Assembly (NCBI GenBank): GCA_963402885.1
Contig: OY727093.1
Coordinates: forward strand, 17,613,036-17,677,035
Origin: Antedon bifida
Taxonomy: Eukaryota > Echinodermata > Crinoidea > Comatulida > Antedonidae
Length of the DNA stretch: 64,000 bases
Direction: 5' to 3'
Shown here: in pieces, positions 1 to 63,895 of the stretch
Numbering within the stretch: the stretch's first letter is position 1
How the letters are laid out: every line of letters starts with the position of its first letter
Position numbers and translations under genes: made by a program
The notes under the pieces: model-generated
What the model was told of the DNA's origin: nothing
Seen by the model: the letters and a program-made list of their open reading frames with translations, nothing else
Database searches by the model: none

Positions 1-50
1 CCGACCGACCGACCAACCGACCGACCAACCATCCGACCGAACGACATAAT
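1..50. repeat. CCGA-rich repeat module, copy 1
   Basis: Short (CCGACCGACCAA)-type tract followed by CGACATAATGA and a CGCGACT word. The same arrangement recurs at 1745-1811 and, inverted, at 6250-6312, so this is a dispersed module rather than a chance simple repeat. The copy is cut by the window edge. Confidence 0.6.
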
Positions 51-579
51 GACACGCGACTAAAAACGTATACAAAATGTCCGAATTCAGATTCAAAATT
101 AAGAATATATTGACGCTATAGAAGAATAGAGGATTTCTGTTATATAAAAGTTGTCTAGTTTCTAGACCTTATGCAATGTGTGAATGCCACATAAAAAATT
201 CAAACCATTTTAGTATACTGAAATGCTTCGTCTAGAGGGCGCATCAAATAGACTATTTATGACATGTACCTGATGCGAATAAATACAAGTAGGCTATGAA
301 TTATTAACATATTTTTTTATAAATATATGTCAAAGCTTCCGATGACATTGAGTAAAGCTACCGTGGTTAAATTTACCATTTTTAAAATCTACTGCGAACA
401 AAGCTTAAATTACATTGGTTGAAAAATGTTTCTACTTTTCAAGTCCAGTGTGAAGAAGGCTTAAGAACTCACTGTCAGTAGTATTATTATAATGTGAAAT
501 GGTAAAACGTATCACCGAGGTGCCTATGTGAGGAACTAATGCGTTTAATCCTCCATTTACAAATGTAACTTAAAACCCA

Positions 580-1503
580 GTGGCCGTATTCACCAATCAC
601 ACTTAAGTGAGATATTTCCCTTAAATCCTAAGAATTTCCCTTAAATCAAGAAAATATTAAGGGTTTCACTTAAGTGGTATTCACAAAGGGTTTAAGGTTA
701 AGGGAAACCCTTAACTTGGTCTATTTTCCCCTTAACTTTTAAGGGACCTCAGAGGTCCCTTAAAAGTTCCCTTAACTATTTAGTACCAGTTGTGCTGACG
801 ATTCTGTATGTGCGAGTACTATGCCTACTTGTAGATGGCCCCAGTCTAGACTAGGTAGAGATGCTAGGCCCCCTGTTGGTCTGCCCACTAACCGGCCTAG
901 GATTCATGTTTGGTTTGAGTAGCATCTAGGCCTAGGCCTAGACCTTTTTTGCTGATCCCCACCATACAAATTAGTCTATGGCTATACATTCATTTATTTG
1001 TTTTATTTTGAATGCCATTATTTATTCCCATTTCGTTGTAATAGAAATTATCCCCATTCTATTAGGCTAGAGGAGGTAGAAATGCTAGGCTCCCTGTTGG
1101 TCTGCCCAGTAACCAGCCTAGGATGCATATGCTTCAATACAGACAGGTTTAGGCCTACACAGAATGTTGGTTTGTTAGTAGCATCTAGGCTAGACCTATT
1201 TTTTTTTATCCTCATACAAATTATTCTAGGTTTAATATTTATTTACTTGTTTTTGTTTTGACTGCCATTTTCTTTTTATTGATCATCGTCCATACACTGT
1301 TCTCTTCATCCTCCCCGTCCTCCCAACCCCTTACTCTTTAAGTAAGTTTTACCCTTACATTAGGCTAAGTGTTTTCCTTAGGTAAGTGAATCCCTTAACT
1401 CATTTGTGAATACCCCTTAAGTGTTTCCCTTTGTTAATGGAATTCTTAAATTTTAAGGGTAAGTATTTCCCTTAGCCTAAGTGAGATTGGTGAATACGGC
1501 CAC
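580..1503. mobile_element. DNA-transposon-like element with ~19-bp terminal inverted repeats
   Basis: The ends 580-598 (GTGGCCGTATTCACCAATC) and 1485-1503 are reverse complements, and the match continues imperfectly inward through CTTAAG-rich sequence. The interior has many CCCTTAA/TTAAGGG words that can fold back, and two diverged direct copies of a ~150-bp segment at about 845-1020 and 1075-1270. The only long open frame (998-1261) looks non-coding. This is a non-autonomous element. I could not define its target-site duplication or superfamily. Confidence 0.75.
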
Positions 1504-1744
1504 ACTAACATAAGATAGACATACACTTTATAACTATGGAAGCTCACCTGCACATATATAAGTTGATAATAAATATAACATTTACATGGAATTGAAAAAG
1601 TATCTCAAAATTAACAAACAGAAGTCTTTCGTATAATATAGATGGCGTTGGATATCAATTCAATTGCTTTTGAAATATGGATACCAATACTTTGATACAT
1701 CATTATATCGTTTATTTCGAAAATCGACTGCACCTTATTGCCCT

Positions 1745-1811
1745 ACCGGCCGACCGACCAACAGACCGACCGACCAACCGACTGACATAATGATCTGTAG
1801 AGTCGCGTGCA
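1745..1811. repeat. CCGA-rich repeat module, copy 2
   Basis: A CCGACCGACCAA tract, then GACATAATGATCTGTAGAGTCGCGTGC. It matches the reverse complement of 6250-6312 including the TGTAGAGTCGCG part, and runs directly into the hairpin at 1810. Confidence 0.6.
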
Positions 1812-1890
1812 ATTTTTATTCGCGTTTAAACTCAACTCTGTAGTCGACATAGTGAACTACAGAGTTGAGTTTAAACGCGAATAAAAATTG
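1810..1890. repeat. Perfect 35-bp inverted repeat with 11-bp loop
   Basis: Arms 1810-1844 and 1856-1890 are exact reverse complements, separated by CGACATAGTGA. As DNA or RNA this would form a 35-bp uninterrupted stem. No T-tract or gene lies at its ends, so terminator function is not supported. It is probably part of a young fold-back element. Confidence 0.9.
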
Positions 1891-2165
1891 TTGAATAATT
1901 ATGCCATTTTATAGTCAAGTAATAATAGGTAGTCACTTTGACCAAAAATAGGATTGAAAAAAAGACAACATTTACCTAAAAAACTGTAAATTACAGCAAC
2001 ACATATTTTAATTGGCTGCCAGTTTTTGGTTAAATTCAATCGTTGATTTTGTCTTTTTCTTTTGTTTATTTTGTTTTCGTTTGTTTCCTATCGAAGTGAT
2101 TAACTTTTAAAACAATTTGAATTTTACAAATTGTATTCTTAATTTTTTCTTCTTATTTATGTCTG
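1891..2165. mobile_element. Diverged member of a MITE-like family (relatives at 13478 and 17646)
   Basis: Shares an ordered set of words with 13478-13808: a TAGTNNTTNACTTTGACC-like segment, GACCAAAAATNGGAT, TTACCTNAAAAA-CTG, and GAAGTGATTAACTTTT near the end. The 5' end is replaced by the hairpin and the 3' end has decayed. Non-coding. Confidence 0.45.
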
Positions 2166-2593
2166 TATATTTTTTATATTAATTAGCTTATCTTTTAAGG
2201 AAGTTTACTTGGCGAGTGGGTAAGTATATAACATCTTATTGGCTTATTGACAATAGTTTTTGCCTTATGTGGGTTCATCCCACTTTTATTTCCATCATGT
2301 GCATTTTATCATTTTAAATCTCGCATGCAAGAAACATGTGCATATTTACATATATGATAAATACAAATTTCACTAACTTATACATAAACATCTTACAAAA
2401 AACCCCCCAAAAAACACACATATAAAATGCAAATTTGTTTTGCTGTTTTACTTTATCATTTTGCAATTATCTATTCATTTAGTATCTCACTTAGTAGTTA
2501 TCATCTAGTTATAATACATATTTATATTTGATTTAGCCTAGTATTTTTGTTTTCTAAAAAAAAAAATAGTTTGTTTTAATGTAATAGGAAATT

Positions 2594-3863
2594 GGTTCCT
2601 GGACATACTGTTGAAGCGTATACTACACCCGTCCCTGGACATACTGTTAAAGCGTATTGCTGCACCCGTCCCTGGCCGGACATACTGTTAAAGCGTATTG
2701 CTGCACCCGTCCATTGACATTATGTTAAAGCGTATTGCTTCACCCATCCCTGGACATACTGTTAAATCCTATTGCTGCACCCGTCCCTGGACATACAGTT
2801 ACAGCGTATTGCTGCACCCGTCCCTGGACATACTGTTAAAGCGTATTGCTGCACCCGTCCCTGGACATAATGTTAAAGCGTATTGCTGCACCCGTCCCTG
2901 GACATACTGTTGAAGCGTATACTATACCCATCCTTGGACATACTGTTAAAGCGTATTGCTGCACCCGTCCCTGGACATTATGTTAAAGCGTATTGCTTCA
3001 CCCGTCTCTGGACATACTGTTAAATCGTATTGCTGCACCCGTCCCTGGACATACAGTTACAGCGTATTGCTGCACCCGTCCCTGGACATACTGTTAAATC
3101 GTATTGATGCACCCGTCCCTGGACATACTGTTAAATCGTATTGCTGCACCCGTCCCTGGACATACTGTTAAATTGTATTGCTGCACCCGTCCTGGACATA
3201 GGCCTACTGTTAAATCGTATTGCTGCACCCGTCCCTGGACATTATCTTAAAGCGTATACTACACCCGTCCCTGGACATACTGTTAAAGCGTATTGCTGCA
3301 CCCGTCCCTGGACATACTGTTAAAGCGTATTGCTGCACCCGTCCATTGACATTATGTTAAAGCGTATTGCTGCACCCGTCCATGGACATACTGTTAAATC
3401 GTATTGCTGCACCCGTCCCTGTTGGAAATACCGTTAAAGCGTATTGCTGCACCCGTCCCTGGACATTATCTTAAAGCGTATTACTGCACCCGTCCCTGGA
3501 CATACTGTTAAAGCGTATTGCTGCACCCGTCCATGGACATTATTATAAAGCGTATTGCTGCACCCGTCCCTGGACATACTGTTGAATCGTATTGCTGCAC
3601 CCGTCCCTGCTGGACATACCGTTAAAGCGTATTGCTGCACCCGTCCCTGGACATTATCTTAAAGCGTATTGCTTCCCCCGTCCCTGGACATACTGTTAAA
3701 TAGTATTGCTGCACCCGTCTCTGGACATAATGTTAAAGCGTATTGCTGCACCCGTCCCTGGACATACTGTTGAAGCGTATACTATACCCATCCTTGGACA
3801 TACTGTAAAAGCGTAGTGCTTCACCCGTCCCTGGACATACTGTTAAAGCGTATTGCTGCATCC
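2594..3863. repeat. 37-bp minisatellite, about 34 tandem copies
   Basis: Unit of 37 bp built around CATACTGTTAAAGCGTATTG and CTGCACCCGTCCCTGGA. Variants such as TGAAGCGTATACTAYACCC recur together (about 2905-2990 and 3770-3850), showing higher-order duplication inside the array. Because 37 is not a multiple of three the frame rotates every unit, so the MLHPSLDI-type open frames here are by-products. No other feature seen. Confidence 0.92.
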
Positions 3864-5002
3864 GATACTCGTACAGAAAATAAATTCTGGGAATCTGCAG
3901 TTTCTTGTCTCCTGACTATAACTTTCGGCATTTGTCTCTGTTGTTGTAGGCGTGTAAATAGACAGGTGCATTGTCTTCTTTACAATATTGAAATTGCGTA
4001 ATAGTGATCGATCGAGTTTAAAGTATCAAATACACGTTTGATCCATGATATTGATAAGTTGATATACGTAACGCTAACATAATCGATAGATCAACAATAC
4101 GAATATACCATTTTTGTTGCTGTATGGTTTATGTCTTATAATATACTATAATATATTTTACAAAAATGTATATTTTGTCAAAATTGATGTATGTTAATAA
4201 TCATTATTTCTCTATAAATATAACCTAGTATAACTATTATTAGATATTTCTAGTCAGAAATAAGTGATTTTATAGTGAAAACAAATTTGTTTCCCCAGGT
4301 AAAAATAATTTGTCCCAGAATTGTGATCAATAGATCGTGATCCGATTTGATGATTTATCTTTATAAATTATGTTTTTCAATCACATTCAACCGGATTTCA
4401 AAGTAGGCGGCTAGCAATTATTACTAGAGTGGTAAGTAACCTAATTTGAATTATACTTTTGAAAAGTTTTCTTCTTTTTTTTTTTACAGATTCTAATTTC
4501 AGTAAGAATTCTCACGATTTACTTACGATAAAGAAACTAAAAAATGGTATTTATCATACAGTACAATTATAGGTAAAAACATATACATTTTCATCTAAAA
4601 ATCAAGGGTATTAAATAAAATGTGTCTATAAGCAAATGTTGTATAACATCAATTAGTGTGATGTATTTTCCACCAAATATCAACAATAAAATTTGAATAG
4701 GCAAGACAGATGTTATAATTTAACTTATATTAAGAAAAAAATGATAAATAGTTAAATTTAACAAAAAACACATTGAATAAACTCGATTAAAAGATAAAAA
4801 ACTTGTATTGTCCAATATTCATTAAAAAATTAATACCGTTGGAAATGTGTTATTTGATACACTACTAAAATAACAGAAATGTACAGAACAAGTAAAAATT
4901 AAAAAAAAAGAAAAGTAAAATAGTGCATTTATATAATATCATATGACCCTCCAATAAAATGACAAGAATATACCAAGGTGTGTTATATTTTTTAAATTTT
5001 AG
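3864..5002. other. AT-rich intergenic stretch upstream of gene A
   Basis: No convincing coding region or structured repeat. It should contain the upstream non-coding exon and promoter of gene A, because a splice acceptor sits five bases before the start codon of that gene. I could not place that exon or a core promoter with any confidence. Confidence 0.4.
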
Positions 5003-5007
5003 AAACC

Positions 5008-8000
5008 ATGATTTGTTTCAAGGTAATCCTAATTACGGCGACATTTATGTCAATGGTATTCGCCAAACCGTTTATGAAAGGTAAGTAATAAGTTTAATAT
5101 TTAAGCTAAAGCTATTTAAGAATAAAAGTCATGTTTTGTAGTATTGTTCACAACAATTATTGAAGCTTAAAAGTTTCTTTTCTATCACTAGGAAGACCTT
5201 TTCATCTTTAAAATAGAGTTCATCTATCATTATTCGGTATCATTGTATTTGTCAATAGAAACATTATGGTTTCATTATTCATTGATCCAAATATCTCCCG
5301 TTCCCTAGAAATATCATTCGGTTCTTTTGGAATTAATTTGGTTGGTTCTCTCGGAACACTATAATATTTTGTTCTCACAGAAAACCATTCCGTTCTTTTG
5401 GAATATCATTTCGTTCTCTCGGAGCACTAGTCTGTTCTCACGAATTCCATTCGGTTCTGTTGGAATTTCAATTCGTTCTCTCGTAACATTATTCTGTTCT
5501 CACGGAATACCATTCCGTTCTTTTTCTTGAGAATATCATTTCGTTCTCTCGTAAAACAATATTCAGTTCTCACGGAATACTATTCCGTTCTTTCGGAATA
5601 TCACTTCGCTCTCTCGTAACACTATCCGTTCTCATGGAATACCAATACCATTCCGTTCTTTTTCTTGGGAATATCATTTCGTTCTCTCGGAACACTATTC
5701 TGTTCTCACGGGATACCATTCCGGTCTTTTGGAATCATTTTGTTCTCTGTTCCGGAATATAATTTTTCCCTGTCGAACATCATTTTCATGATCGAATGCA
5801 TGATTTAATATTCTATAATTTAATTTCCACAGGTTTCGGAACAATAAGATATTTCAAATATGAAAATTGCATATTTTATTATTTTTTAGCTACTTAAAAT
5901 TACGGTCGTGAGAAAATGAACTTTTCGTAGTCTGATTTCGATGAAATTAAAAATAATTGTTAAGCAATATCTTGTTGTTAATTAATCCTCGACGCAAACA
6001 TGTCGATAGAGCAAGCGTACGATTTCTACATGTCTATGTTTTGTTGTTAATCTTGATTTTTTTAAATGCCAACGGTATGGATTACCATCTCCAGCAAGCA
6101 GCGACCACGTGTCAGTCCTGCATTCCCGGACATGATTGTATTTTTTTTTTCAAAACAGATTATTTCAGCCTGTGCTACAATTAAATATGTAAGTGGCTAT
6201 ATCTTAAAACATTGTTAGAAAAACCCGTGAATATTTAGGTTATCATCTTTAGTCGCATGCAACGCGACTCTACAGCTAACTATGTCGGTCGGTTGGTCGG
6301 TCGGTCGGTCGGTAAACACTAACTTGAGCACGCGACTGCAGCCATCTATATGGCCTTGTTAATAAACAATTTTGGTTGAAAAAACATTTATAGAATTTCA
6401 TTTGCACATTTAACGTCAAAACTGATCGTGTTTACATTTAACGGCGTGATGATTGCACATTAGTGGATTATACATTTTTACAGATTTTCACATTTGAGGG
6501 TGCCATGTTTGCACAAACGTGGTTGTTCGCACAAATGTGACTTTCTGCACATTTTACGGTTCAACACACCGTTGATACGTATCCATCTATTCATTAATCT
6601 ATGCTTTCAAACAATGAGTTTCCAATTTATGTACGAAAAAAATCGCGTAGACGTATGATGTAGACTTCATGTAAGTGAAGATGTTCTAATAGATAATGTC
6701 AATCAATTCATTTCCTAAAAAAAACATTTTGTTCACTCAGAATATTTATATATGCGAATTATTCCATACCTATAAAATACAGAAATAAACACCTATTATA
6801 GTATAAGCAACAGTAAATTAGTGGATTCTAGGGATACAGTATCTAATTGGACCAATACCAGTATAGGCAAATTCCGTGATACAGGATCATATATGTTTCA
6901 TATGTAACACATATACCCTAACCTAATTAATTTAATGTCATACTGTATATGGAGATATACAGAACTAAAAATCGGTTGTTTACTTATTTTTTAGCCGCTG
7001 AGTATAATGCAGAGGCAAGGTACAAACTCGGTATGTACGATTATATAATTTATATTGTAAGAGAGATTGTTTGTCATACGCAATTTTCTAATGAACGCAT
7101 CCATACAAAATGACTGCAATATGTACTAGGAAGGTTTTAAATATTAGCTCCAAGTTTAAAATTTATCCCATTCCTATCTTACGAAAAACATTATGAACAA
7201 GTTTTGACAATGCTCGTTCTGCTTTACCGCTGAAATAAGTGGCGGTTATATCAATTTCGATACTTTAGACATGTGTTTCTTAAAACTGTAATATAAAAAC
7301 TGAATAATGGAAATAATTTCGGATGATTTAGAGATTTTTAAAAATCTATCATTTGTTGTTACAAATTTATATTTTATTTATTTCAGAAGTAAATTTCCAA
7401 GGTGACAGCGACACTGTTACAGCAGGTACCGTAATTATAATTATTAGGAAACATGATTTGTAATAAAACAAATGAAATTTATTAAAAGCATAAAAAATAT
7501 GCTATGAATTGTATATTAAATAATGTTATAATTGGACCATGATATTTTTTTGTATTTTACAGCAGCGGGCAGCACCACTGCTGCAGCAGGTAATTATATT
7601 ATGAAACATGATTTGTAATTAAGCAAATGAATTTGATTTAAAACATAAAAAGATGCTATGAATTGTATATCAAATAATGTTAATTGTTATAATTGGACTA
7701 TGATATTTCTTGTATTTTACAGCACCGGTCAGCACCACTGCGGCAGCAGAAGGTAATATTATCAGACGTGTTTTGTAATTACGCAAATGTAGTTTTTTAG
7801 GCTTTATAATGTGTTATAAACTTACTTATTGAATGATAAAGATATTATATTTTTGTTACCTCATAGAGCTCTGGAATATTGTCTGGAATACTAGGGAATG
7901 TAGCTGTACTTGTTATTTAAATTAATATTCTTTGTATTTTCTAATTTTAGGCAAAGGTAAATGACGACACGATTACGTATTGGATTCGCATGCTTCAACT

Positions 8001-11000
8001 TTCAATGAAATTTGAAAAAAAAACAATTCAAAATGAATAATGAAGTTGTATTAGTATATTTTGTATTATTTATATTGAACGTCTTTTTTCTAAAAAGAAA
8101 AAAAAATACATAGATATCCTTTAGTTAGGCCAATGATTTGCTGGTAAAAATATGCAAGATTGCGGTTTTGTTTTTCCAAATGAAGTTGTATTAGTATATT
8201 TTGTATTATTTATTTTGAACATCTTTTTTCTAAAAAGAAAAAAAAATACATAGATATCCTTTAGTTAGGCCAATGATTTGCTTGTAAAAATATGCAAGAT
8301 TGCGGTTTTGTTTTTAAAATTGTAATATAAAAAAATATCTATCATTTGTTGTTACAAATTTATATTTTATTTATTTCAGAAGTAAATTTCCAAGGTGACA
8401 GCGACACTGTTACAGCAGGTACCGTGTTTATAATTATTAGGAAACATGATTTGTAATAAAACAAACGAAATTTATTAAAAGCATAAAAAATATGCTATGA
8501 ATTGTATATCAAATAATGTTATAATTGGAGCATGATATTTTTTGTATTTTATAGCAGCGGGCAGCACCACTGCGGCAGCAGGTAATTATATTATGAAACA
8601 TGATTTGTAATTAAGCAAATGAATTTGATTTAAAACATAAAAAGATGCTATGAATTGTATATCAAATAATGTTAATTGTTATAATTGCACTATGATATTT
8701 GTTGTATTTTACAGCACCGGTCAGCACCACTGCGGCAGCAGAAGGTAATATTATCAGACGTATTTTGTAATTACGCAAATGTACTTTTTTCAGGCTTTAT
8801 AATGTGTTATAAACTTACTTATTGAATGATAAAGATATGATATTTTTGTTACCTCATAGAGCTCTGGAATATTGTCTGGAATACTATGGAATGTAGCTGT
8901 ACTTGTTATTTAAATTAATATTCTTTGTATTTTCTAATTTTAGGCAAAGGTAAATGACGACACGATTACGTATTGGATTCGCATGGTTCAACTTTTAATG
9001 AAATTTGAGAAAAAACCCAATTCAAAATGAATAATGAAGTTGTATTAGTATATTTTGTATTATTTATATTGAACGTCTTTTTTCTAAAAAGAAAAAAAAA
9101 CATACATAGATATCCTTTAGTTAGGCCAATGATTTGCTGGTAAAAATATTCAAGATTGTGGTTTTGTTTTTCAAAATGAAGTTGTATTAGTATATTTTGT
9201 ATTATTTATTTTGAACATCTTTTTCTAAAAAGAAAAAAAAACATAGATATCCTTTAGTTAGGCCAATGATTTTGGTAAAAATATGCAAGATTGCGGTTTT
9301 GTTTTTTAAAATTGTAATATAAAAAAATATCTATCATTTGTTGTTACAAATTTATATTTTATTTATTTCAGAAGTAAATTTTGAAGGTGACAGCGACACT
9401 GTTACAGCAGGTACCGTGATTATAATTATTAGGAAACATGATTTGTAATAAAACAAATGCAATTTATTAAAAGCATAAAAAATATGCTATGAATTGTATA
9501 TTAAATAATGTTATAATTGGACCATGGTATTTTTTGTATTTTATAGCAGCGGGCAGCACCACTGCTGCAGCAGGTAATTATATTATGAAACATGATTTGT
9601 AATTAAGCAAATGAATTTGATTTAAAACATAAAAAGATGCTATGAATTGTATATCAAATAATGTTAATTGTTATAATTGCACTATGATATTTGTTGTATT
9701 TTACAGCACCTGTCAGCACCACTGCGGCAGCAGAAGGTAATATTATCAGACGTATTTTGTAATTACGCAAATGTAGTTTTTTCAGGCTTTATAATGTGTT
9801 ATAAACTTACTTATTGAATGATAAAGATATGATATTTTTGTTACCTCATAGAGCTCTGGAATATTGTCTGGAATACTAGGGAATGTAGCTGTACTTGTTA
9901 TTTAAATTAATATTCTTTGTATTTTCTAATTTTAGGCAAAGGTAAATGACGACACGATTACGTATTGGATTCGCATGGTTCAACTTTCAATAAAATTTGA
10001 AAAAAAACCAATTCAAAATGAATAATGAAGTTGTATTAGTAAATTTTGTATTATTTATATTGAACGTATTTTTTCTAAAAAGAAAAAAAAAATACATAGA
10101 TATCCTTTAGTTAGGCCAATGATCTGGTGGTAAAAATATGCAAGATTGCGGGTTTGGTTTTTAAAATTGTAATATAAAAAAAAATATCTATCATTTGTTG
10201 TTACAAATTTATATTTTATTTATTTCAGAAGTAAATTTCCAAGGTGACAGCGACACTGTTACAGAAGGTACCGTGTTTATAATTATTAGGAAACATGATT
10301 TGAAATAAAACAAATGAAATTTATTAAAAGCATAAAAAATATGCTATGAATTGTATATCAAATAATGTTATAATTGGACCATGATATTTTTTGTCTTTTA
10401 CAGCAGCGGGCAGCACCACTGCGGCAGCAGGTAATTATATTATGAAACATGATTTGTAATTAAGCAAATGAATTTGATTTAAAGCATAAAAAGATGCTAT
10501 GAATTGTATATCAAATAATGTTAATTGTTATAATTGCACTATGATATTTGTTGTATTTTACAGCACCGGTCAGCACCACTGCGGCAGCAGAAGGTAATAT
10601 TATCAGACGTATTTTGTAATTACGCAAATGTAGTTTTTTTCAGGCTTTATAATTTGTTATAAACTTACTTATTGAATGATAAAGATATGATATTTTTGTT
10701 ACCTCATAGAGCTCTGGAATATTGTCTGGAATACTAGGGAATGTAGCTGTACTTGTTATTTAAATTAATATTCTTTGTATTTTCTGAATTTTGGGAAAGG
10801 TAAATGACGACACGATTACGTATTGGATTCGCATGGTTGAACTTTCAATAAAATTTGAAAAAAAAAACAATTCAAAATGAATAATGAAGTTGTATTAGTA
10901 TATTTTGTATTATTTATATTGAACGTCTTTTTTCTAAAAAGAAAAAAAAATACATAGATATCCTTTAGTTAGGCCAATGATCTGGTGGTAAAAATATGCA

Positions 11001-14000
11001 AGATTGCGGTTTTGTTTTTTAAAATTGTAATATAAAAAAAATATCTATCATTTGTTGTTACAAATTTATATTTTATCTATTTCAGAAGTAAATTTCCAAG
11101 GTGACAGCGACACTGTTACAGAAGGTACCGTGTTTATAATTATTAGGAAACATGATTTGTAATAAAACAAATGAAATTTATTAAAAGCATAAAATATATG
11201 CTATGAATTGTATATCAAATAACGTTATAATTGGACCATGATATTTTTTGTATTTTATAGCAGCGGGCAGCACCACTGCTGCAGCAGGTAATTATATTAT
11301 GAAACATGATTTGTAATTAAGCAAATGAATTTGATTTAAAGCATAAAAAGATGCTATGAATTGTATATCAAATAATGTTAATTGTTATAATTGCACTATG
11401 ATATTTGTTGTATTTTACAGCACCTGTCAGCACCACTGCGGCAGCAGAAGGTAATATTATCAGACGTATTTTGTAATTACGCGAATGTACTTTTTTTCAG
11501 GCTTTATAATGTGTTATAAACTTACTTATTGAATGATAAAGATATGATATTTTTGTTACCTCATAGAGCTCTGGAATATTGTCTGGAATACTAGGGAATT
11601 TAGCTGTACTTGTTATTTAAATTAATATTCTTTGTATTTTCTAATTTTAGGCAAAGGTAAATGACGCACGATTACGTATTGGATTCGGATGGTTCAACTT
11701 TCAATGAAATTTGAGAAAAAAAAAACCAATTCAAAATGAATAATGAAGTTGTATTAGTATAATTTTATTTTGTATTATTTATATTGAACGCCTTTTTTTT
11801 AAAAAGAAAAAAAACCCGTTGATATCCTTTAGTTAGGCCAATGATTTGCTGGTAAAAATATGCAAGATTGCGGTTTTGTTTTTCAAAATGAAGTTGTATA
11901 TGTATATTTTGTATTATTTATATTGAACGTCTTTTTTCTAAAAAGAAAAAAAAATACATAGATATCCTTTAGTTAGGCCAATGATTTTGGTAAAAATATG
12001 CAAGATTGCGGTTTTGTTTTTTTAAATTGTAATATAAAAAAATATCTATCATTTGTTGTTACAAATTTATATTTTATTTATTTCAGAAGTAAATTTCCAA
12101 GGTGACAGCGACACTGTTACAGCAGGTACCGTGATTATAATTATTAGGAAACATGATTTGAAATAAAACAAATGCAATTTATTAAAAGCATAAAAAATAT
12201 GCTATGAATTGTATATCAAATAATGTTATAATTGGCCCATGATATTTTTTGTATTTTATAGCAGCGGGCAGCACCACTGCTGCAGCAGGTAATTATATTA
12301 TGAAACATGATTTGTAATTAAGCAAATGAATTTGATTTAAAACATAAAAAGATGCTATGAATTGTATATCAAATAATGTTAATTGTTATAATTGGACTAT
12401 GATATTTGTTGTATTTTACAGCACCGGTCAGCACCACTGCGGCAGCAGAAGGTAATATTATCAGACGTATTTTGTAATTACGCAAATGTACTTTTTTCAG
12501 GCTTTATAATGTGTTATAAACTTACTTATTGAATGATAAAGATATGATATTTTTGTTACCTCATAGAGCTCTGGAATATTGTCTGGAATACTAGGGAAAG
12601 TAGCTGTACTTGTTATTTAAATTAATATTCTTTGTATTTTCTAATTTTAGGCAAAGGTAAATGACGACACGATTACGTATTGGATTCGCATGGTTCAACT
12701 TTCAATGAAATTTGAGAAAAAAAACCCAATTCAAAATGAATAATGAAGTTGTATTAGTATATTTTGTATTATTTATATTGAACGTCTTTTTTCTAAAAAG
12801 AAAAAGATACATAGATATCCTTTAGTTAGGCCAATGATCTGGTGGTAAAAATATGCAAGATTGCGGTTTTGTTTTTCAAAATGAAGTTGTATTAGTATAT
12901 TTTGTATTATTTATATTGAACGTCTTTTTTTCTAAAAAGGAAAAAAAAACTATCCAGATCCTATAGTTAGGCCAATGAATTTGCTGGTAAAATATGCAAG
13001 ATTGCGATTTTATTTTTAAAATTGTAATATAAAAACAATATCTATCATTTGTTGTTACAAATTTATATTTCATCTATTTTTTCAGAAGTAAATTTCGAAG
13101 GTGACAGCGACACTGTTACAGCAGGTACCGTGATTTTAATTATTAGGAAACATGATTTGTAATAAAACAAATGAAATTTATTAAAAGCATAAAAAAATAT
13201 GCTATGAATTGTGTATCAAATAATGTTATAATTGGACCATGATATTTTTTGTCTTTTACAGCAGCGGGCAGCACCACTGCGGCAGCAGGTAATTATATTA
13301 TGAAACATGATTTGTAATTAAGCAAATGAATTTGATTTAAAGCATAAAAAGATGCTATGAATTGTATATCAAATAATGTTAATTGTTATAATTGCACTAT
13401 GATATTTGTTGTATTTTACAGCACCGGTCAGCACCACTGCGGCAGCAGAAGGTAATATTATCAGACGTATTTTTTAATTAAAGATGTATTGTCTCCCTGA
13501 AAAATATTTTTTTACAATTTTGTTGTTGAATATGCCATGTTAATGTCACATAATAGTTATTGACTTCGACCAAAAATTGGATCGAAAAAAAATTTATTTA
13601 CCTGAAAAAACTGGAATTTAAAGCAAAAAATGGTCAAATTTGGTTGAATTTAATCATTTATCATGTTATTTTATAAGTGAAAACATTATTTTTTCCGGGT
13701 TTTTTTTCCATGGAAGTGATTAACTTTATTAAAACTACAAAATAAGCTATTGAAAGTCTAATTTAATAAATCTTCATTTTTCATGTTTTTGGGACAATAC
13801 ATCTTTAAGCAAGTGTATGAAAATATCATTCCGCTTTCGAAAGGCAAAATTAAATAATTAACTATTTTCAACTAATGTGCCGAGTGATTAAGTTTGGTTG
13901 ACCTACTTCAATGTATGCATTGATGGAGATATCGCCTCTCGTCTAGCAAAATAACATTTTTCATTATTTTTGACATTTCCTTCTGTTTTTTTTTACTTTA

Positions 14001-14364
14001 AACACATAGTTTAATGTTTAATATTATCTTATTTACATTTTCTTCATTTTATAGAATTAGCATAATAGACTGTGTTATATTCTTTTTGAGCTTAGTTTAA
14101 TTTTCTTTAACCTCAGAAATAAACTTAGGAGTTCCGATGGCATTTCCTGCTGGTCGATAGTTATGGCAAGATTTTAAACTACCGTAATGTTACGGAGAAG
14201 TTGGTCAACAAAATTCAATCCATCGTTCCATTTTATGTTTTGGTCATTTGAAAATGAATTATTGTTGCTATCATTATTGTACAAACTAGATATTTTGTTT
14301 AATTTAAGGCGCCGATGAGCTCCTTCTTGAAGCACTGGAAATGGATGGTGAATTCGAATACTAG
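5008..14364 (+). CDS. Gene A: secreted Ser/Thr/Ala-rich repeat protein encoded by micro-exons
   Basis: No named family recognised. Spliced model with all introns phase 1. Exon 1 (5008-5080; acceptor at 5001-5002, so a 5' UTR intron exists) encodes a hydrophobic signal peptide starting MICFKVILITATF, with likely cleavage after VFA. Exon 2 (6995-7030) is AAEYNAEARYKL. Seven cassettes follow: E (39 nt, EVNFQGDSDTVTA), F (27 nt, AAGSTTAAA), G (30 nt, APVSTTAAAE), and in five cassettes a possible 6-nt exon (GK). The last exon (14309-14364) encodes GADELLLEALEMDGEFEY and a stop. Predicted length is about 288 residues, or 278 without the 6-nt exons. The STT/Ala repeats suggest a mucin-like, O-glycosylated, extracellular product; that role is inferred. 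Every internal exon is a multiple of three with equal phases, so any can be skipped in frame. Order and motifs match gene B, so the two look like paralogues. Confidence 0.75.
5291..5765. repeat. ~60-bp minisatellite in intron 1 of gene A
   Basis: Tandem units of roughly 60 bp, each made of three ~20-bp sub-units carrying CGTTCTNTCGGAAT-like words (TTCGTTCTCTCGGAA, CTGTTCTCACGGAA, CCGTTCTTTTGGAA). Copies are diverged. The open frame at 5327-5530 is a product of the repeat. Confidence 0.8.
6250..6312. repeat. CCGA-rich repeat module, copy 3 (inverted)
   Basis: Reverse complement of the module at 1745-1811: ACGCGACTCTACAG, then TATGTCGGTCGG and a GGTCGGTCGGT tract. It lies in intron 1 of gene A. 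Confidence 0.6.
7387..13451 (+). repeat. Seven tandem copies of a 0.86-1.0 kb exon cassette in gene A
   Basis: E exons start at 7387, 8380, 9372, 10229, 11086, 12087 and 13086 (39 nt each). F exons start at 7563, 8555, 9547, 10404, 11261, 12262 and 13262 (27 nt). G exons start at 7723, 8715, 9707, 10564, 11421, 12422 and 13422 (30 nt). Periods are 993, 992, 857, 857, 1001 and 999 bp. The long units differ from the short ones by an extra ~135-bp spacer copy (TGAAGTTGTATTAGTATATT...). Introns are nearly as similar as exons, so the amplification is recent or homogenised. The F and G copies differ only at synonymous third positions (GCT/GCG, CCG/CCT). E has Q/E and A/E replacements. Confidence 0.93.
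7951..7956 (+). other. Candidate 6-nt micro-exon (GCAAAG) of gene A, first of five
   Basis: CTAATTTTAG precedes GCAAAG and GTAAATG follows. With phase-1 introns it would add Gly-Lys. Identical arrangements are at 8944-8949, 9936-9941, 11651-11656 and 12651-12656. In cassette 4 the acceptor is destroyed (TTTTGGGAAAG near 10790), and cassette 7 has no copy. It could instead be a decoy pair of splice sites. Its use is unproven. Confidence 0.4.
13478..13808. mobile_element. MITE with TTAA duplication inside cassette 7 of gene A
   Basis: Ends are AGATGTATTGTC... and ...GACAATACATCT, flanked on both sides by TTAA (13478-13481 and 13805-13808). Removing it restores TTAATTAAGCAAGTGTA, which matches TGTAATTACGCAAATGTA at the same place in the six other cassettes. 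These act as internal empty-site controls. The TTAA target suggests a piggyBac-type non-autonomous element; that assignment is inference. Confidence 0.85.
14309..14364 (+). CDS. Terminal coding exon of gene A
   Basis: The acceptor TTTAATTTAAG joins in phase 1 to the preceding G exon and encodes an acidic C-terminus, GADELLLEALEMDGEFEY, then TAG. It is part of gene A and lies 0.86 kb past the last repeat cassette, beyond the MITE. A canonical poly(A) signal follows about 260 bases later. Confidence 0.7.
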
Positions 14365-18815: not shown

Positions 18816-21800
18816 ATGAAGCAGACAGTACTTGTACTCGCTATTGCATTTGCATGCATAGCAATAACCTATTCTTCACCTTCAGGTAATTTGATCAATT
18901 GTGGTAATACAAATGGTAAAGGTGTTGATAGTTTATATTGATAAAGGAAAGAACTACGTATTATATACAACCTAAATAATTTCCTTCATTTGAGTGGACA
19001 ATATAGTAGACGATATAACGATGGCGGTGACGATGTAATTGACAATACTATAATGGTGACGATTTTGACGATACAATGATGGCGGCGACAATGTATGTGG
19101 CAATAATGGTGACGATTGTGACTATGCAATGATGATGATGGTGCTGATATAGGTGGCAATAATGGTGACGATCGTAAAGATATAATGATGGTGATGACAA
19201 TGTATGTGGCAATAATGGTGACGATTGTAAAGATATAATGATGGTGGTGACAATATATGTGGCAATAATGGTGACGATCGTAAAGATATAATGATGGTGG
19301 TGACAATGTATGTGGCAATAATGGTGACGATTGTGACTATACAATGATGATGATGGTGCTGATATAGGTGGCAATAATGGTGACGATCGTAAAGATGTAA
19401 TGATGGTGGTGACAATGTATGTGGCAATAATGGTGACGATCGTAAAGATATAACGATGGTGATGACAATGTATGTGGCAATAATGGTGACGATTGTGACT
19501 ATACAATGATGATGATGATGGTGCTGATAGGTGTCAATAATGGTGACGATCGTAAAGATATAATGATGGTGATGACAAAGTATGTGGCAATAATGGTGAC
19601 GATTGTGACTATACAATGATGATGATGGTGCTGATATGGGTGGCAATAATGGTGACGATCGTAAAGATATAATGATGGTGGTGACAATGTATGTGGCAAT
19701 AATGGTGACGGTTATGACGATACAATTATAGTGGTGACGATGTGTGTGGCAATAATGGTGACGGTTATGACGATACAATTATAGTGGTGACGATGTATGT
19801 GGCAATAATGGTGACGGTTATGACGATACAATTATGGTGGTGACGATGTATGTGGCAATAATGTTGACGGTTATGACGATACAATTATAGTGGTGACGAT
19901 GTATGTGGCAATAATGGTGACGGTTATGACGATACAATTATAGTGGTGACGATGTATGTGGCAATAATTGTGACGGTTATGACGATACAATTATAGTGGT
20001 GACGATGTATGTGGCAATAATGGTGACGGTTATGACGATACAATTATGGTGGTGACGATGTATGTGGCAATAATGATGACGGTTATGACGATACAATTAT
20101 AGTGGTGACGATGTATGTGGCAATAATAGTGACGACTGTGACAATACAATAAGATGGGGTGAGCGATATAAGTGGCAATAATGGTGACGATTGTGAAGAT
20201 TCAATGATGACTGTGGTGACAATGTGGGGGCAATAATGGTGACGATTGTGACGATACAATCTTAGTGGTGATATAGGTGGAAACAATGATGACAATTGTG
20301 ACGATACAAAGATGATGGTTGGGTGACGATGTATGTGGAAATAATTTGAAGATTGTGATGATACAATGATAGTGGTGATATAGGTGGCAATAATGATGAC
20401 GATTGTGACGATTCAATGATGATGGTTTTAGTGACGATGTAGGTGGCAATAATTGTGAAGATTGTGACGATGCAATGATGGTGGTGATATATCGTAGATC
20501 GTAAAAATATAATAATGGTGGTGACAATAAAAATATTTTTACGATACAATGATGGTGGTGATATAGGCGGCAATAATGGTGATGATTGTGACGATACAAT
20601 GATGGTGGTGATATAGGCGACAATAATGGTGATGATTGTGACGATACAATGATGGTGGTGATATAGGCTGCAATAATGGTGACGATACAATTATGTCTGT
20701 GGTGATGAGGTAGGGTAATAATCGTGATGATTTGACAATACAATAATGACGATGATGTAGGTGGCAAAGATGATGACGAATATGACGATATATTATTATT
20801 GGTGTAATGATATTTACAATTGTGAAGATGCATAATTATTGTAATAATCGACCACATGATTGTGATGAACTAAACTGAAACTATGGTAAAAAACCAGAAA
20901 TACTTAAAGTTGGAGAATGAAAGATAATAGCCATAAAATATTATTGTTTTAATTATGAGCCTGTTAATAATGTTGAAACAAAATGAACATTTTACGTTTA
21001 ATTTATTTTCAGCAAAACGAGCAAAGCTAATGGCAGCATTAGGTAGGTAAAATGCATACAAAATTATAATATAATACCTATTTGTGTAATAGTAGTAGGT
21101 CATACGAAATTAACTACTAAAACAAAATTGCTGTCGATAATTTTATATTTGTAACTTTTTATTTAAATTTTGAAATTGATTTTAATATTTTAGTATAATA
21201 ATTCCTTTCTACTGCAAATAATTATGTTAACATAAATGTATGTAACATGATTTGTACAAACACTACCGAACCGTAGAAAAGCTTGCCGAACTGAAATAAA
21301 TAGAATTTAATATTTGAGTTAATTCTAATTTTGTTCTTCTACTTTATTTTCAGAAAATCAAGTCGATTTCCAAGGTATGCTATATCTCAAATATTATTAT
21401 CTATTATGTATTTCATAGTATAGGCATAAAATTAGTAATTCGATTAGACTACTGTGTAATATTACCGTTCGCCTTTATTATATACAAACATTATGTTGGC
21501 GTTTGGTATAAGCCATGGTGTATCATAACGTATCGTATATGTATTTGATATATGGGATGGACGCATGCACGTTGTATAGTCCTAATAATGATAATTATAC
21601 ACCACGTGGTAATTAAAATTGACTTATCAGTCAATTTCTTGAAATTTCATATAACCATTTTACTTGTTGTTAGAGATACTTGTTGCTACAGTTAAAATTG
21701 ATCCTTATGTCTATACGAAAAATAAATTTTTTTTTTTACATTTTCAGAAGAAAATGCTGTAGCTGAAGGAGGTAGGCTGCTACAGCATTAACTTATTCCA

Positions 21801-24800
21801 GTGTCAGTGGGGTCACGCTTTAAAAATCTTAAACTTCAGTCTACACAAGTGTATTTGGTTCTCGCAGTCTAGTCGTTTTGGACCATTTTTGCCACTTATA
21901 TCCACCTTAAAACCAACTTGTAGTGGTAGCCGTTTTTAACAATTTGTCATTCATGTCAACCTAAGAACTAAATGGCAATCTAGCCTTTTTAACAATGTTG
22001 TCATCCGTGTCCACCTAAGGACTAACTCACAGTCTAGCCGTTTTTAACCATTTCGTCATCCCTATCCATCTAAATAAATATTGTCAATTTAACAATTTTT
22101 TAACCATTATGATTCAAAACACAATATTGTTTTAATTTTAGGAGATACTGCAGAGGTACCTGCTGCAGGTAAGAAACAGTAACAAAAACACAATGTAATT
22201 TCTAATAGTATTCATTCTATTTTGTGTACACTTGGGATAAACAAATTGTTTTATGTTTGAAGACCAGGCAGCGAAAGTAAAGTGTCCGATATTTTGTGTG
22301 GACCATCTTTTGGCTTTTTACAGTTCATTACAACTGATCCTGAAGCTTGGTTCTCACTTGAAAACTTGACCAATCAGAAGCAACAGTTCGGATGGCCAAT
22401 CGCGTCGTGATTGGTCAAATTACTTACGTTCTAATCACGTCCTTACGTTGCGATCAAGCGAGAACCAAGCGTTAGGTTTGTGAATAAACGCACTCTTATT
22501 TTTGATTTGTCAGACAATAGTACAGCTACAAACAACGGTACAGCTGAAGCCGACGGCACAGCCGTGGAAGAAAGTGCAGGTGATGGTAAGTAAGAAACAT
22601 AAGAAATTCATCATTTAACTTCATTCGTCGTTAATTTTGGCTATCGTCTATTGGCTTAATTTAATACACTAATCTCGAGTTGGAGAAACAAATTGGAATA
22701 TCAATGATCGTTTATTAAACATTTATTTTGGATTCAGTGCTCCAATTAGGTATATTTACTATGTAAGTTTGTCTCTCTGTCTTTCTGCCAAGGCAATCTA
22801 GCAACAGAATGATGAGCCCGCCTTGCCAAGATAGGAATGTTACGGTTACAGCCGTTAATTTGTAGGCTGACCATACATTTAATTGTACTTATTCTTTTAA
22901 AAGTTCGAGTGTGTCAGATTTTTCTTACGAACATGAAGTTCTAAATAGTTATCTATTTCGTTTAATTGTTTTATGATAATATACACGATAGATCAGACTT
23001 AACAGTTTTAAGTTGACGATATTGTTTGTCTTCATTTTGACAATGTTGGAATTCATTAATACACAAACCATTATTGTAGATGGCCGGAAATGGTATTCTC
23101 GCACGTAAAAATCATGAAGTGCAATTGGCAAAACAATCGTAGCATAATTTTTTCCGACGGTAAACACACGCACACTAAAAGTTCTCCCGAACCATAAACA
23201 GTTCCTCTGGCTTGGGCCTGAATAACATAACATGTAACACCATTTGGGGTGGACCTGTTTCTAGAATGTTCATTGTAAAAGTTCCCACCGCCGCGGCGTT
23301 ACATCAAACTTTGCCGTTTTTCAGTCAAGTTACACACTCTTTTGCAAACTACAGAAAACTAGCGTCTTTGTAGAACCAGCATGGTACAGGTACATCCACG
23401 TCCTAAAAGGGAATTCCCGACTTGTATATTAACAACGAATATGCGTTCCATTGCCCCATCGTCGATTCCTAAATGACGGTACAGTACGCTACTCGCCTCA
23501 ATATAGGGGAAAACTGTATATTTAAAATGTAATCCTTGTTGTAGATTCTCCAAAACTGAGAACATTTCACATCTAGATCAGTGTATAATTGATAACAAGT
23601 TTCAGCATCGGAAACAATTTCGCAACCCACCATTTTTTTCCCCACCCAAACATTGGGTCGCGACCCATATGTTGCGGAACGGCGGTGTAGACTAACTTAA
23701 ATGTTTTATTTCCCTAACTAATGAATTCTCACCGCATTACTTCATTGATTAATTTAAATTGGGTTGTGTTTTGAAGAAACAAGATAAGTATATATGTACA
23801 TTATTCTCCGGTTTCTCTTATAACCAAACATTTGAGTAAGCCAATTGGCCAATCAGTCAAACGTAGGGCGTGGAACTGTCGCAACCACAGTTGAGATTGC
23901 CTTGGTTGCAATGGTCATAAATAACGGGATTTTATCCCACTCTATATTATTCAAACGTGTTTTTGCCAAACTAATTTATTGACCGTGATATCATACTGAC
24001 CAATAGAATGACGGACTGATCAAGATAAATGTCATTTCTTGACACTAACAGAATTAAATTTAATGTTATTTTTATTTTCAGCCAATCAAGTCAACTTCCA
24101 AGGTACGATATTTGTCTGCATATTATTCCAAAACAGTATTATGTATTTTATTATAGGCTAATAAATATACGATAATAATTAAATTATTTTAATATAAATA
24201 TTTGTAATTGGTGCTACAGGAATTGTTCTCCTTTTTTTGTTATTGTTGTGGAAAGATAATTTTAGTTTTTAATAAGAGATATCAAATATAATACTATTTT
24301 GTTTATAATTAATAATTTATAATTGATGTTGATTTTGCATCCATTGTATTAATTTCTTTTTGAATGTATACTATGAATATTGAATAAAAAAATAGTAAAT
24401 ACTGTGTTACGAAACATAAATTGCAATACAAAAAACGCCTAAAAAACGAATTAACTTTAGTGTATTCTACCTAAAAACGAACTCTCCGTCTCTATTAGTC
24501 CTTTCTGATTATTTATTTGAGTCATTCCTATCCACCCAAAAACGAACACGTTTTTAGCCGTTTGTTATCTTATCTTATTATAATTGATCATCTTGCTTTA
24601 ATTGCTGGTATGCCTACATTTCTTACATTATGAATGCCTATATGAAAAAAAGAGACTTGTTTTAATTTCAGACGATGGCGCAGTTGTAGACGCTGGAGAT
24701 GGTGCAGCAGGTAAGTGAGAACAAATACAATTTTTAAATTACTTAGCCATGTTTGAATTTAGTTGGATACAATTTAGTTTGGCTACTCGTGAGATGGACG

Positions 24801-26770
24801 AATGGGGCATTGTTTAAAGGATCACGAGGTCCATGGATAATAGTGCATTAACATGACGTATGTTTCAGTTTCTAATGAACCATTATTGTGTGTTGACAAG
24901 CTCTGTCTACACTATCAAACTAGTTTGGCAAAAAATGTGTGATGTGCCTAAATATGGTAGTGATATGACATCATCATGTCCATATAGGGCACATCACATT
25001 TTTTGTCACATAAAATGTGATTATTTTAGAGTTTTAGAGTTCTTTCATTCATCATTATAACACTATTACTTTCATTTTTCAGCAGGAAATGGTACAGTAG
25101 TTGCAGATAGTGCAGGTAGGCCTAATACCCATTTCATGCAACATAAATTTAAACTTGTTACGACTTGTAACATATTTTGATCCCTGACTTATTCGCATCC
25201 TCGAACCTTGTGAAATCTCCTATAAGTGTTGTTCATATTATGGGGAAAATAATGCACGGCGTGTAATAAGAAACAAGCCAATCAAATCATACACTTAGGC
25301 TTGTTATAATGCACCCTAATGTAAGGTAAAGTTCTCTGAAACAAAAAACATACATTGGATACTATTAAATTTGAATAATCCATAGATAAACAGTACATTA
25401 ACATGACGTATGTGTTCTAATTTCATGTTTTTAAATTTTCATTTGATTCATCGTTGTAAATTATCCTTATGTGTGATTAAAAACACTGTTACTTTTTACT
25501 TTTCAGCTGGAAACAGTACAGCTGTAGATGGTAAGTAACATTACATACAACCATTAAAACAATTAAAACCGTGTTCATTTATTCGATTCTTAGTGCTGTA
25601 TCTCAACATACAGTACAATGTAAAAATAACGAATGTTTATGAGTGTTATGGTACAATAAAAACATGCGGTAAAAGATAAAATTCCATTTTTAAGAGCGAC
25701 ATCCGAGTGAAATGGAATTCTCATAACCCGGATAAAAATAGTCACAGATGATTGAAAATGCTCTATATTGATACATTAATTAGGGTGACTAATGAATATT
25801 ATTCTATACCAAATAGGGTGAAGAATATTTAGAACTTATCTAAATTAATTAGAAACTACAGTATTTTAGCTTTCAAATTCAACAATATAAGATAATAGGT
25901 TATTTTCTGTCTGTATTATTCAGTTTGTATCAGTGTACATTTATATATTATTATAATTGTTATTATTAGGAGACGCAGCACCAGCAGTTGCACCAGCAGA
26001 AGAACCAGCACCAGCAGGTATGTTCCTGACGGTTGTTATTTCAAACAAATAAACATTTTTTATTTTTAAAATAGTGTATTATATATTATTATACACTTTC
26101 GAGGTAAAAAAACATAAACATTTTGTAAAAGTCGGTACTTAAAATAGTACCGACAACACCATTAGACCTAGTTATAAAAAACTTCATTTTTAGTAACTTA
26201 CTGTTATGTTTAATTCGAATTCTGTATTTGTTAACTTAGAATAATTTGACAACGATGTTTATAAATTTAATTTATTTAACTGGGGGAGGGAGGAATGGTT
26301 CCACATGGATTGATTTGCAGATTAATAAAAAGTAAGACCAAGTTTAATCCATTCATTTCATTCATCTTTTTACTTTGGAATACCATGATCACATAATACA
26401 GTATATCCATAGCCAAAAAAATCTTAACCCAAGAAAGCATTGTACAGATAAAAAAAAGTTAAGGTTGTAACATTTTACAATGAATATAATTATTCTGAAA
26501 AGTAGGCGCCTGTTGTGATTTGTATTTATTTATTTACTTACTAATGTTTGTTTTAAAAGTAAATGTATTTATTTGAAACAATTTGTATGTTTTACTTTAA
26601 CACAATATGTTGCCTGTAGGCCTATCATCCCTTCATCTACTTGCCTTCACTAGCTCATCATCTAATCAATCTATTCATTATTCATTTTACATTTTTCTAT
26701 CTTTGAAAAGACATGAATTTATTTAATTTCATTAATATTATTGTTTTCTTTATTTTTTTCTACAGTATAA
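18816..26770 (+). CDS. Gene B: secreted acidic Ala/Gly-rich protein encoded by micro-exons
   Basis: No named family recognised. Twelve coding exons, all junctions phase 1: 18816-18885 (signal peptide MKQTVLVLAIAFACIA...), 21013-21042 (AKRAKLMAAL), 21354-21374 (ENQVDFQ), 21748-21771, 22142-22168, 22514-22585, 24082-24102 (ANQVNFQ), 24672-24710, 25083-25115, 25507-25530, 25970-26017 (Pro/Ala/Glu-rich) and 26766-26770 (Val-stop). Predicted length is 137 residues. An acceptor at 18796-18797 implies a 5' UTR intron. After a basic second exon the chain is acidic and has four N-x-T/N-x-S-type sequons (for example NST and NGT), so extracellular glycosylation is plausible. Exons 3 and 7 look like duplicates of each other and carry the (N/D)FQ motif also found in gene A. 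Internal exons are 21-72 nt, symmetric and individually skippable. Function unknown; the splice pattern and repeated motif make the gene credible. Confidence 0.78.
19005..20850. repeat. 53-bp minisatellite in intron 1 of gene B, about 35 copies
   Basis: Unit of 53 bp of the form GGCAATAATGGTGACGATCG followed by TAAAGATATAATGATGGTGG and TGACAATGTATGT. Variant groups cluster (GATCGTAAAGATATA type at 19000-19700; GGTTATGACGATACAATTAT type at 19700-20110; more diverged to 20850), which suggests regional expansion. Minus-strand His/Ser/Ile-rich open frames exist in all frames because 53 is not a multiple of three. They are by-products. Confidence 0.92.
22344..22472. mobile_element. Short MITE in an intron of gene B
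   Basis: Ends are inverted: AGCTTGGTTCTCACTTG and (C)AAGCGAGAACCAAGC. The body includes GACCAATCAGAAGC and ATTGGTCAAATTA. The family also appears at about 39160-39313, ending GGGAACCAAGCTT. Non-coding, inserted between the 22142 and 22514 exons. Confidence 0.65.
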
Positions 26771-28617: not shown

Positions 28618-28851
28618 TTACTCGGGGTACCCGAGTCTAGGACTTACTCATTTTCTCCATCTGGACACTATTGAGTAAAAAGTGCGATTTTTAAAGTACT
28701 ACTCCTCTCTTATTAGTTGTAGTATTGAGCTGGGATTTGGCATGAATGTACTACAGGGACATGTCCTCAAATCTATAGAGCCGGATTTTTAAATTTTAAA
28801 CCGGATGCAGCCATATGACGTCTCAAAGATGGTACCATATAGCCGTATTTG
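28618..28851. repeat. tRNA-Val-associated cassette, left part (target of LINE insertion)
   Basis: Begins near the palindrome CTCGGGGTACCCGAG and continues through GAGCCGGATTTTTAAATTTT to GGTACCATATAGCCGTATTTG. Segments of the same order recur at 37654-37836 and 37989-38116. The right-hand continuation of this copy is displaced to 37357 by the LINE. Confidence 0.75.
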
Positions 28852-30325: not shown

Positions 30326-30400
30326 AATGTTTGATGGAAATAGTTTAGGCTAGTGCCTATTAGATTCCATTTCTAGCCGAAAATAGTTGTCATAGCCTCT

Positions 30401-41328: not shown

Positions 41329-63895
<22,567 letters not shown>

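Follow-up and report, generated by a model that had tools for sequence, protein, structure and literature searches.

The 64,000-nt window analysed here (contig OY727093.1 of assembly GCA_963402885.1, positions 17,613,036 to 17,677,035), from the crinoid Antedon bifida, carries on its plus strand two neighbouring predicted genes with very small internal exons. The first of these, gene 1 (5008-14364), contains a tandem array of near-identical exon cassettes, and the second, gene 2, follows the same exon grammar.

Exon chain and predicted product of gene 1

In the modelled chain, a signal-peptide exon is followed by a 36-nt exon, by the 21 exons of 27-39 nt that make up the array (7387-13451; seven times A, B, and C, of 39, 27, and 30 nt, respectively), and then by a terminal exon, and this layout, which the initial annotation had described, is present on the plus strand. 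Joined together, these exons give a coding sequence of 837 nt with a single stop, located at its end, and a predicted protein of 278 residues. All 23 introns are of the GT-AG kind and all lie in phase 1. Moreover, each of the 22 internal exons is a multiple of three in length, again as originally claimed, though symmetry was required by the scan and this second count is thus partly built in. Signal peptides were called by a hydropathy scan of phase-1 start exons, and exon 1 is the sole signal-like start exon of this phase to pass the cut-offs within positions 1-5100. At the other end, an AATAAA lies at 14625, 3′ of the terminal exon.

The array exons stand apart in base composition, with a guanine-cytosine (GC) content of 0.58 against 0.23 in the introns, and every one of the 365 27-nt windows with a GC content of at least 0.5 in the array overlaps an A, B, or C exon. 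The predicted mature protein of gene 1 includes 63 Ser and Thr among its 259 residues. For genes 1 and 2 alike, the predicted mature proteins have a computed isoelectric point of 4.05, contain 26-29% Ala, and lack Cys, and by inspection there is no Trp in either predicted protein. Here, we propose the peptide EVNFQGDSDTVTA as an antibody target. Two simple repeats accompany the gene, namely a 37-bp tandem repeat of about 34 copies upstream of it (2598-3864) and a 62-bp tandem repeat within its first intron (5365-5748).

Chance controls for the exon calls

Candidate exons were scored with hand-written splice-site matrices, and the cut-offs were fixed in the script before any scores had been seen. 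By this measure, unit 1 of the array yields five candidates that are symmetric and open in phase 1, namely A, B, and C together with a 15-nt form of A and a 24-nt form of B, while dinucleotide shuffles of the same unit, counted in the same way, give a mean of 0.02, with none of 1000 reaching three. Across the region from 7031 to 14308, every one of the 31 candidates corresponds to an A, B, or C exon, either as modelled or as an in-frame variant; in four units, B scores 7.4 against a cut-off of 7.5 and was detected only as its 24-nt form. Exons on the minus strand of the array can be rejected, as there is one phase-1 candidate there against the 31 on the plus strand. The other two phases give 17 (phase 0) and 23 (phase 2) array candidates, and since the same segments are often open in these phases, the assignment to phase 1 rests on the chain and not on single exons.

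In 210 kb of flanking sequence, scanned on both strands (420,000 nt), we found no further micro-exon cluster, the yield being 29 scattered candidate groups (at most four per 5.2 kb), some of which are perhaps real exons of a flanking gene, and nine signal-like start-exon hits. By comparison, non-overlapping candidates number three in 1 kb for unit 1 and seven in 5.2 kb for gene 2. At the flank rate, the Poisson probability for seven is 1e-7, a value that would overstate the excess if real exons occur in clusters.

Array units and their origin by duplication

The array consists of six full units of 857-1001 bp and a shortened seventh (Table 1). None of the seven has lost a splice site of A, B, or C. 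Where aligned, the units are 95-98% identical, and the array is therefore young and counts as one observation, not seven. Between C and the next A sits a candidate 6-nt exon, D (GCAAAG). Such 6-nt exons had been put forward in the initial annotation, and while five of the six copies are indeed intact, the fourth is without an acceptor AG and unit 7 has none. With two equally strong 6-nt candidates in the 420 kb of flank, an inter-unit intron would be expected to hold 0.0027 of them, although the 37-bp satellite at 2.6-3.8 kb is rich in minus-strand 6-nt candidates.

The A-B and B-C introns of unit 1 share 91% identity over 126 aligned bases, whereas 200 shuffles give a mean of 67% and a maximum of 81%; the same comparison gives 88-89% in units 3 and 6. 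This excess over the shuffles indicates that B and C derive from the copying of an exon plus its intron, and that the A-B-C block was copied afterwards. Over the last 27 nt of A, at its 3′ end, 19 positions agree with B (a raw count). Unit length is either 857 or about 1000 nt, because the copy number of a 140-bp direct repeat varies. The inter-unit introns hold one or two copies of this repeat (found by repeat detection in units 1 and 5 and on visual reading in units 2 and 6), with the two copies of unit 1 located at 8039-8315. Between unit copies, the mean pairwise divergence is 0.024 for exons and 0.034 for introns, two of the five variable exon columns change the residue (Q/E and A/E, by inspection), and gap columns in the exons number zero, a comparison of low power.

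A search of the 315.6-Mb genome (27 contigs), in which common words were skipped, returned eight matches to the array unit, all at the gene 1 locus. A satellite or a mobile repeat was rejected on account of this confinement to one locus in that search.

A neighbouring gene with the same exon grammar

Gene 2 (18816-26770) begins 4.5 kb downstream of gene 1 on the same strand and is absent from the initial annotation. We found it by a whole-window scan (micro-exons at 21-25.5 kb), by reading of the region, and by a start-exon scan. It starts with a signal exon and closes with a terminal one, between which lie ten internal exons (21-72 nt); the whole amounts to 414 nt and 137 residues and is without a tandem array. 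All ten internal exons are multiples of three (here too the scan asked for symmetry), the modelled introns are all in phase 1, and each of the 1024 subsets of internal exons stays open. Within 20900-26100, three cut-offs gave six, seven, and nine non-overlapping candidates against shuffle means of 0.12, 0.29, and 0.29 and a maximum of two (200 shuffles), the loosest of the three having been chosen after the scores of the start-exon scan were known. The other frames of this region gave two to four candidates in phase 0, four to six in phase 2, and none on the minus strand. Gene 2 is the best independent support for the exon layout of gene 1.

Duplication is visible in this gene as well, since exons 3 and 7, taken with flanking intron sequence, align with a score of 77, where shuffles reach at most 31, and exons 9 and 10 form a second related pair (score of 43). 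When the exon pattern for ENQVDFQ and ANQVNFQ was searched in the 315 Mb with one mismatch allowed, the only two matches were those in gene 2, and a reversed control gave none. From its build, its V(D/N)FQ motif, and its composition, gene 2 is probably a relative of gene 1. The predicted mature protein holds four N-X-S/T sites. A large 50-53-bp minisatellite occupies positions 19050-20687 within the first intron of gene 2.

Table 1. Positions in the window of the modelled exons of genes 1 and 2 and of the array units.
Feature	Positions	Strand	Description
Gene 1 exon 1	5008-5080	+	Signal peptide, MICFKVILITATFMSMVFAKPFMK; 73 nt, phase-1 end, donor AAG/GTAAGT
Gene 1 exon 2	6995-7030	+	36 nt, 12 residues, AAEYNAEARYKL; acceptor 7.2 bits, below the first cut-off of 7.5
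Unit 1	7387-8379	+	A 7387-7425, B 7563-7589, C 7723-7752, candidate 6-nt D 7951-7956
Unit 2	8380-9371	+	A 8380-8418, B 8555-8581, C 8715-8744, D 8944-8949
Unit 3	9372-10228	+	A 9372-9410, B 9547-9573, C 9707-9736, D 9936-9941
Unit 4	10229-11085	+	A 10229-10267, B 10404-10430, C 10564-10593; D at 10794, without acceptor AG
Unit 5	11086-12086	+	A 11086-11124, B 11261-11287, C 11421-11450, D 11651-11656
Unit 6	12087-13085	+	A 12087-12125, B 12262-12288, C 12422-12451, D 12651-12656
Unit 7	13086-13451	+	A 13086-13124, B 13262-13288, C 13422-13451; ends after C, no D
Gene 1 terminal exon	14309-14364	+	GADELLLEALEMDGEFEY, then stop
Gene 2 exon 1	18816-18885	+	Signal peptide, MKQTVLVLAIAFACIAITYSSPS; 70 nt, phase 1
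Gene 2 exon 2	21013-21042	+	AKRAKLMAAL
Gene 2 exon 3	21354-21374	+	ENQVDFQ
Gene 2 exon 4	21748-21771	+	EENAVAEG
Gene 2 exon 5	22142-22168	+	GDTAEVPAA
Gene 2 exon 6	22514-22585	+	72 nt; 66-nt form possible
Gene 2 exon 7	24082-24102	+	ANQVNFQ; copy of exon 3, including flanking intron
Gene 2 exon 8	24672-24710	+	DDGAVVDAGDGAA
Gene 2 exon 9	25083-25115	+	AGNGTVVADSA; 3-nt shorter form from 25086
Gene 2 exon 10	25507-25530	+	AGNSTAVD
Gene 2 exon 11	25970-26017	+	GDAAPAVAPAEEPAPA; weak acceptor, 5.0 bits; by reading, not scan
Gene 2 terminal coding bases	26766-26770	+	V, then stop; by reading

Splicing options and diversity

In silico, all 20,000 random combinations of the gene 1 exons remain open and in frame, in line with the earlier statement that any subset would give an open protein. 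For the three introns tested, on the other hand, retention would bring in a stop codon after no more than 13 codons. Each of the seven A exons has an in-frame internal donor (AAG/GTGACA) 15 nt from its start, which scores 7.3 bits, while the donor at the 39-nt end scores 7.1 in five copies and 5.9 in the other two. This internal donor corresponds to the point at which the ENQVDFQ and ANQVNFQ exons of gene 2 end, which would suggest, provided that the exons of the two genes are related, that it marks an older exon end. In B, a second acceptor lies in frame 3 nt downstream (24-nt form), and none of the A, B, and C donors has a G at +5. Introns measure 133-137 nt inside a unit and 492-636 nt between units, and this difference would favour the splicing of A-B-C as a block.

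If the 21 array exons were chosen one by one, the 2,097,152 subsets would encode 732,360 distinct proteins (A occurs in three variants, B and C in one each), while the skipping of whole units would give 65 distinct proteins from 128 subsets. The initial annotation had considered a very large set of secreted Ser/Thr/Ala-rich isoforms possible. The predicted product is of this type, but "very large" is an overstatement, since such isoforms would be combinations of near-identical peptides with repeat number as their main difference.

Homology searches and host

Searches of Pfam gave sub-threshold matches only for gene 1 and none for gene 2, and there was no meaningful match in the PDB (best E of 0.55 and 0.15 for genes 1 and 2, respectively). 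When the proteins were searched against their own genome, gene 1 matched its own first and last exons only and gene 2 two of its own exons only. For micro-exon genes in echinoderms, no report was found in the literature among the matches listed.

The initial annotation had placed the gene in an animal outside the flatworms, and the mitochondrial COX1 of this genome indicates an echinoderm. In alignment with the best-matching PDB COX1 chain, which we take to be mammalian, AAA stands opposite Asn in four of four cases, and by our own reading of this alignment, ATA stands opposite Ile in 11 of 15 and opposite Met in one of 15, both as in mitochondrial code 9. This code is common to flatworms and echinoderms, and flatworm COX1 is far more divergent. 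The protein aligns over its full length with the vertebrate-type chain at 862 bits, an end-to-end match on which a flatworm host was rejected and an echinoderm strongly favoured over it. The mitochondrial genome (contig 27; 15,844 bp, GC content of 0.269) resembles that of the crinoid Comaster schlegelii in both length and A+T content (73.1% here, against 15,887 bp and 72.73% in that species; PMC8820819), and a crinoid is therefore likely.

Comparison with known systems

In structural terms, the closest analogue of the array is the SmPoMuc family of polymorphic mucin genes of Schistosoma mansoni. These are reported to have a signal peptide and tandem genomic units of about 1 kb, each with a 27-bp exon and with introns more than 94% identical; the genome has no more than 20 copies of the repeat, while the number in transcripts ranges from 1 to 100 (PMC2576457). 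Gene 1 resembles this in that a predicted signal peptide is followed by roughly 1-kb tandem units with a 27-nt exon and near-identical introns. Five pairs of short A/T-rich arms in the introns of unit 1 (a raw count) may be compared with the complementarity proposed for SmPoMuc. There are clear differences as well: SmPoMuc has one repeated exon per unit and gene 1 has three plus the candidate 6-nt one; SmPoMuc is a multigene family, whereas a single gene 1 array was found in our search with common words skipped; and the intronic hammerhead ribozyme of SmPoMuc has no counterpart in the window, where an Rfam scan at gathering thresholds returned two transfer RNAs only. Moreover, SmPoMuc belongs to a flatworm and its variation in repeat number has been measured, whereas gene 1 belongs to an echinoderm and is known from genome sequence alone.

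As for the micro-exon genes (MEGs), one study describes them as genes in which long exons flank a central part made of micro-exons of less than 36 bp (26 of 33 symmetric in one set), with the signal peptide usually encoded by the 5′ exon, and reports that many of the products are disordered, with an abundance of Thr, Ser, and Pro (PMC4671649). According to a 2015 account, they appear to be platyhelminth-restricted (PMC4350168). Genes 1 and 2 share with MEGs, so described, a signal peptide in the 5′ exon (predicted here) and small symmetric central exons. By size, exons of less than 36 nt, up to 36 nt, and up to 39 nt contribute 48%, 52%, and 85% of the gene 1 coding sequence, respectively, and seven of the ten internal exons of gene 2 are shorter than 36 nt. 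The motifs that follow the signal peptide in MEGs include Trp, and in one clade there are Cys motifs (PMC10526429). In contrast, genes 1 and 2 have neither Trp nor mature Cys, as judged from motif inspection and not from alignment with MEG proteins, and they are echinoderm by COX1 where MEGs appear to be platyhelminth. Of the initial description of gene 1 as MEG-like, what stands is a micro-exon gene with symmetric phase-1 cassettes, a view that gene 2 strengthens; membership among the MEGs themselves fails on motifs and taxon, and SmPoMuc is the better comparison.

Two other systems deserve mention. Vertebrate tropoelastin, a repetitive secreted protein, is encoded by small phase-1 cassette exons, but its hydrophobic and cross-linking repeats are of another sequence than those of gene 1. 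The bicycle genes of aphids, putative effectors, have many small internal exons in phase 2 (PMC9168663). Gene 1 likewise has many small internal exons of one phase, yet its phase is 1, and its tandem array of near-identical units has no equivalent noted in the cited account of the bicycle genes.

Interpretation

The exon grammar, the duplications, the single locus, and the taxon are all legible in the DNA itself. On this footing, we somewhat favour the view that gene 1 is a protein-coding echinoderm gene for a secreted, acidic, Ala/Thr/Ser-rich repeat protein, the repeat number of which can change without disturbing the frame by recombination and possibly by splicing, and that its layout is convergent with those of known systems. 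Its middle part would have grown by nested tandem duplication, with an exon and intron being copied to give B and C and the A-B-C block then being copied to seven. Because all introns are in phase 1 and the exons are multiples of three, the gain or loss of a unit changes the protein by 32 residues without a frameshift, and this may take place through unequal recombination or through skipping in splicing; repeat number may be polymorphic. If the gene is expressed, the commonest product would likely be the full or nearly full chain, with A-B-C probably spliced as a block and repeat number as the main variation. The protein itself, whose mature part has no Cys, would presumably be a disordered, O-glycosylated constituent of a coat, mucus, or matrix.

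Several points weigh against this view. Both gene models were read from the genome sequence of one assembly, the scores depend on the hand-written splice matrices, and the acceptor of the gene 1 terminal exon is weak (4.7 bits). In the A-to-C block, five of 96 exon columns are variable against 33 of 355 intron columns (p = 0.30), and exons B and C of unit 1, identical at 24 of 27 positions, match no better than their introns. As exon divergence is thus indistinguishable from that of introns, purifying selection on the exons is not demonstrated. Given that the cassettes are near-identical, variants would differ mainly in length and repeat number, with little sequence diversity. With Ser and Thr at only 13 of 117 mature residues, gene 2 does not encode a Ser/Thr-rich protein, and its exon 7 aligns with A of gene 1 at a DNA score of 33; unrelated pairs score 33-35, and DNA similarity is therefore no proof of kinship between the two genes. 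The protein collection yielded no homologue, with 7990 candidates scored in one search and no candidate at all in another, though a flanking-gene query was also unmatched, so that this collection may hold few animals and the negative says little.

A broader proposal, which we hold only tentatively, is that the locus represents an independent deuterostome counterpart of the MEG and SmPoMuc systems, in which nested exon duplication has built micro-exon genes, with splicing and unequal recombination between individuals giving secreted proteins of variable length and composition. Micro-exon genes have so far been tied to parasitism, and such a layout in an echinoderm, if true, would separate the mechanism from a parasitic role and would suggest that exon duplication at phase-1 introns alone can produce it. 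Genes 1 and 2 show two steps of this in one locus, the duplication of a single micro-exon and the amplification of a whole block.

True combinatorial splicing, the proposal of the initial annotation, seems to us rather unlikely; here the choice of individual micro-exons, of the form of A (15 or 39 nt) and of B (24 or 27 nt), and of D would be free and would give many secreted variants per animal. It would make good use of the frame tolerance of random exon combinations, of the internal donor that in all seven A exons outscores the regular one and sits at a gene 2-like exon end, and of the alternative B acceptor and the donors without G at +5. Yet near-identical cassettes offer little diversity in sequence, and skipping unit by unit would yield only 65 proteins.

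In keeping with the intact A, B, and C splice sites of all seven units would be a plain structural repeat protein, for example of skeletal matrix or mucus, that is always fully spliced and whose exon boundaries have no regulatory meaning. Acidic, Ala-rich repeats and a mature part without Cys would suit a matrix or mucin-like protein, but the in-frame alternative sites in every copy of A and B, though possibly unused, are left unexplained, and we consider this account improbable. Lastly, that the locus is no gene but a dead or untranscribed tandem repeat in which segments look like exons by chance, as the lack of detectable exon constraint among copies and the broken fourth D might imply, is very improbable in the face of the shuffle and flank controls, of a non-repetitive gene 2 with the same grammar, and of a unit that matches one locus only and so is no genome-wide satellite.

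Other features of the window

Beyond the two genes, open reading frames (ORFs) of the long interspersed nuclear element type occupy both strands at 28800-37093; among these, a 979-residue ORF on the minus strand (30401-33340) matches RVT_1 and endonuclease families, while the others were recognized by reading. From 47859 to 64000, and probably beyond, there is a series of minus-strand ORFs, two of which were tested and match fibronectin type III. One has a sub-threshold match to PTP_tm (PTPRJ), and several have a GDNLW-like motif with no accepted Pfam match. A run of N falls within 55753-56180 (X in the translated ORFs). Transfer RNA matches are located at 37514-37586, which is tRNA-Val(AAC), and at 55580-55648, and a 247-bp tandem repeat (3.3 copies, 94% matches) extends over 57618-58443.

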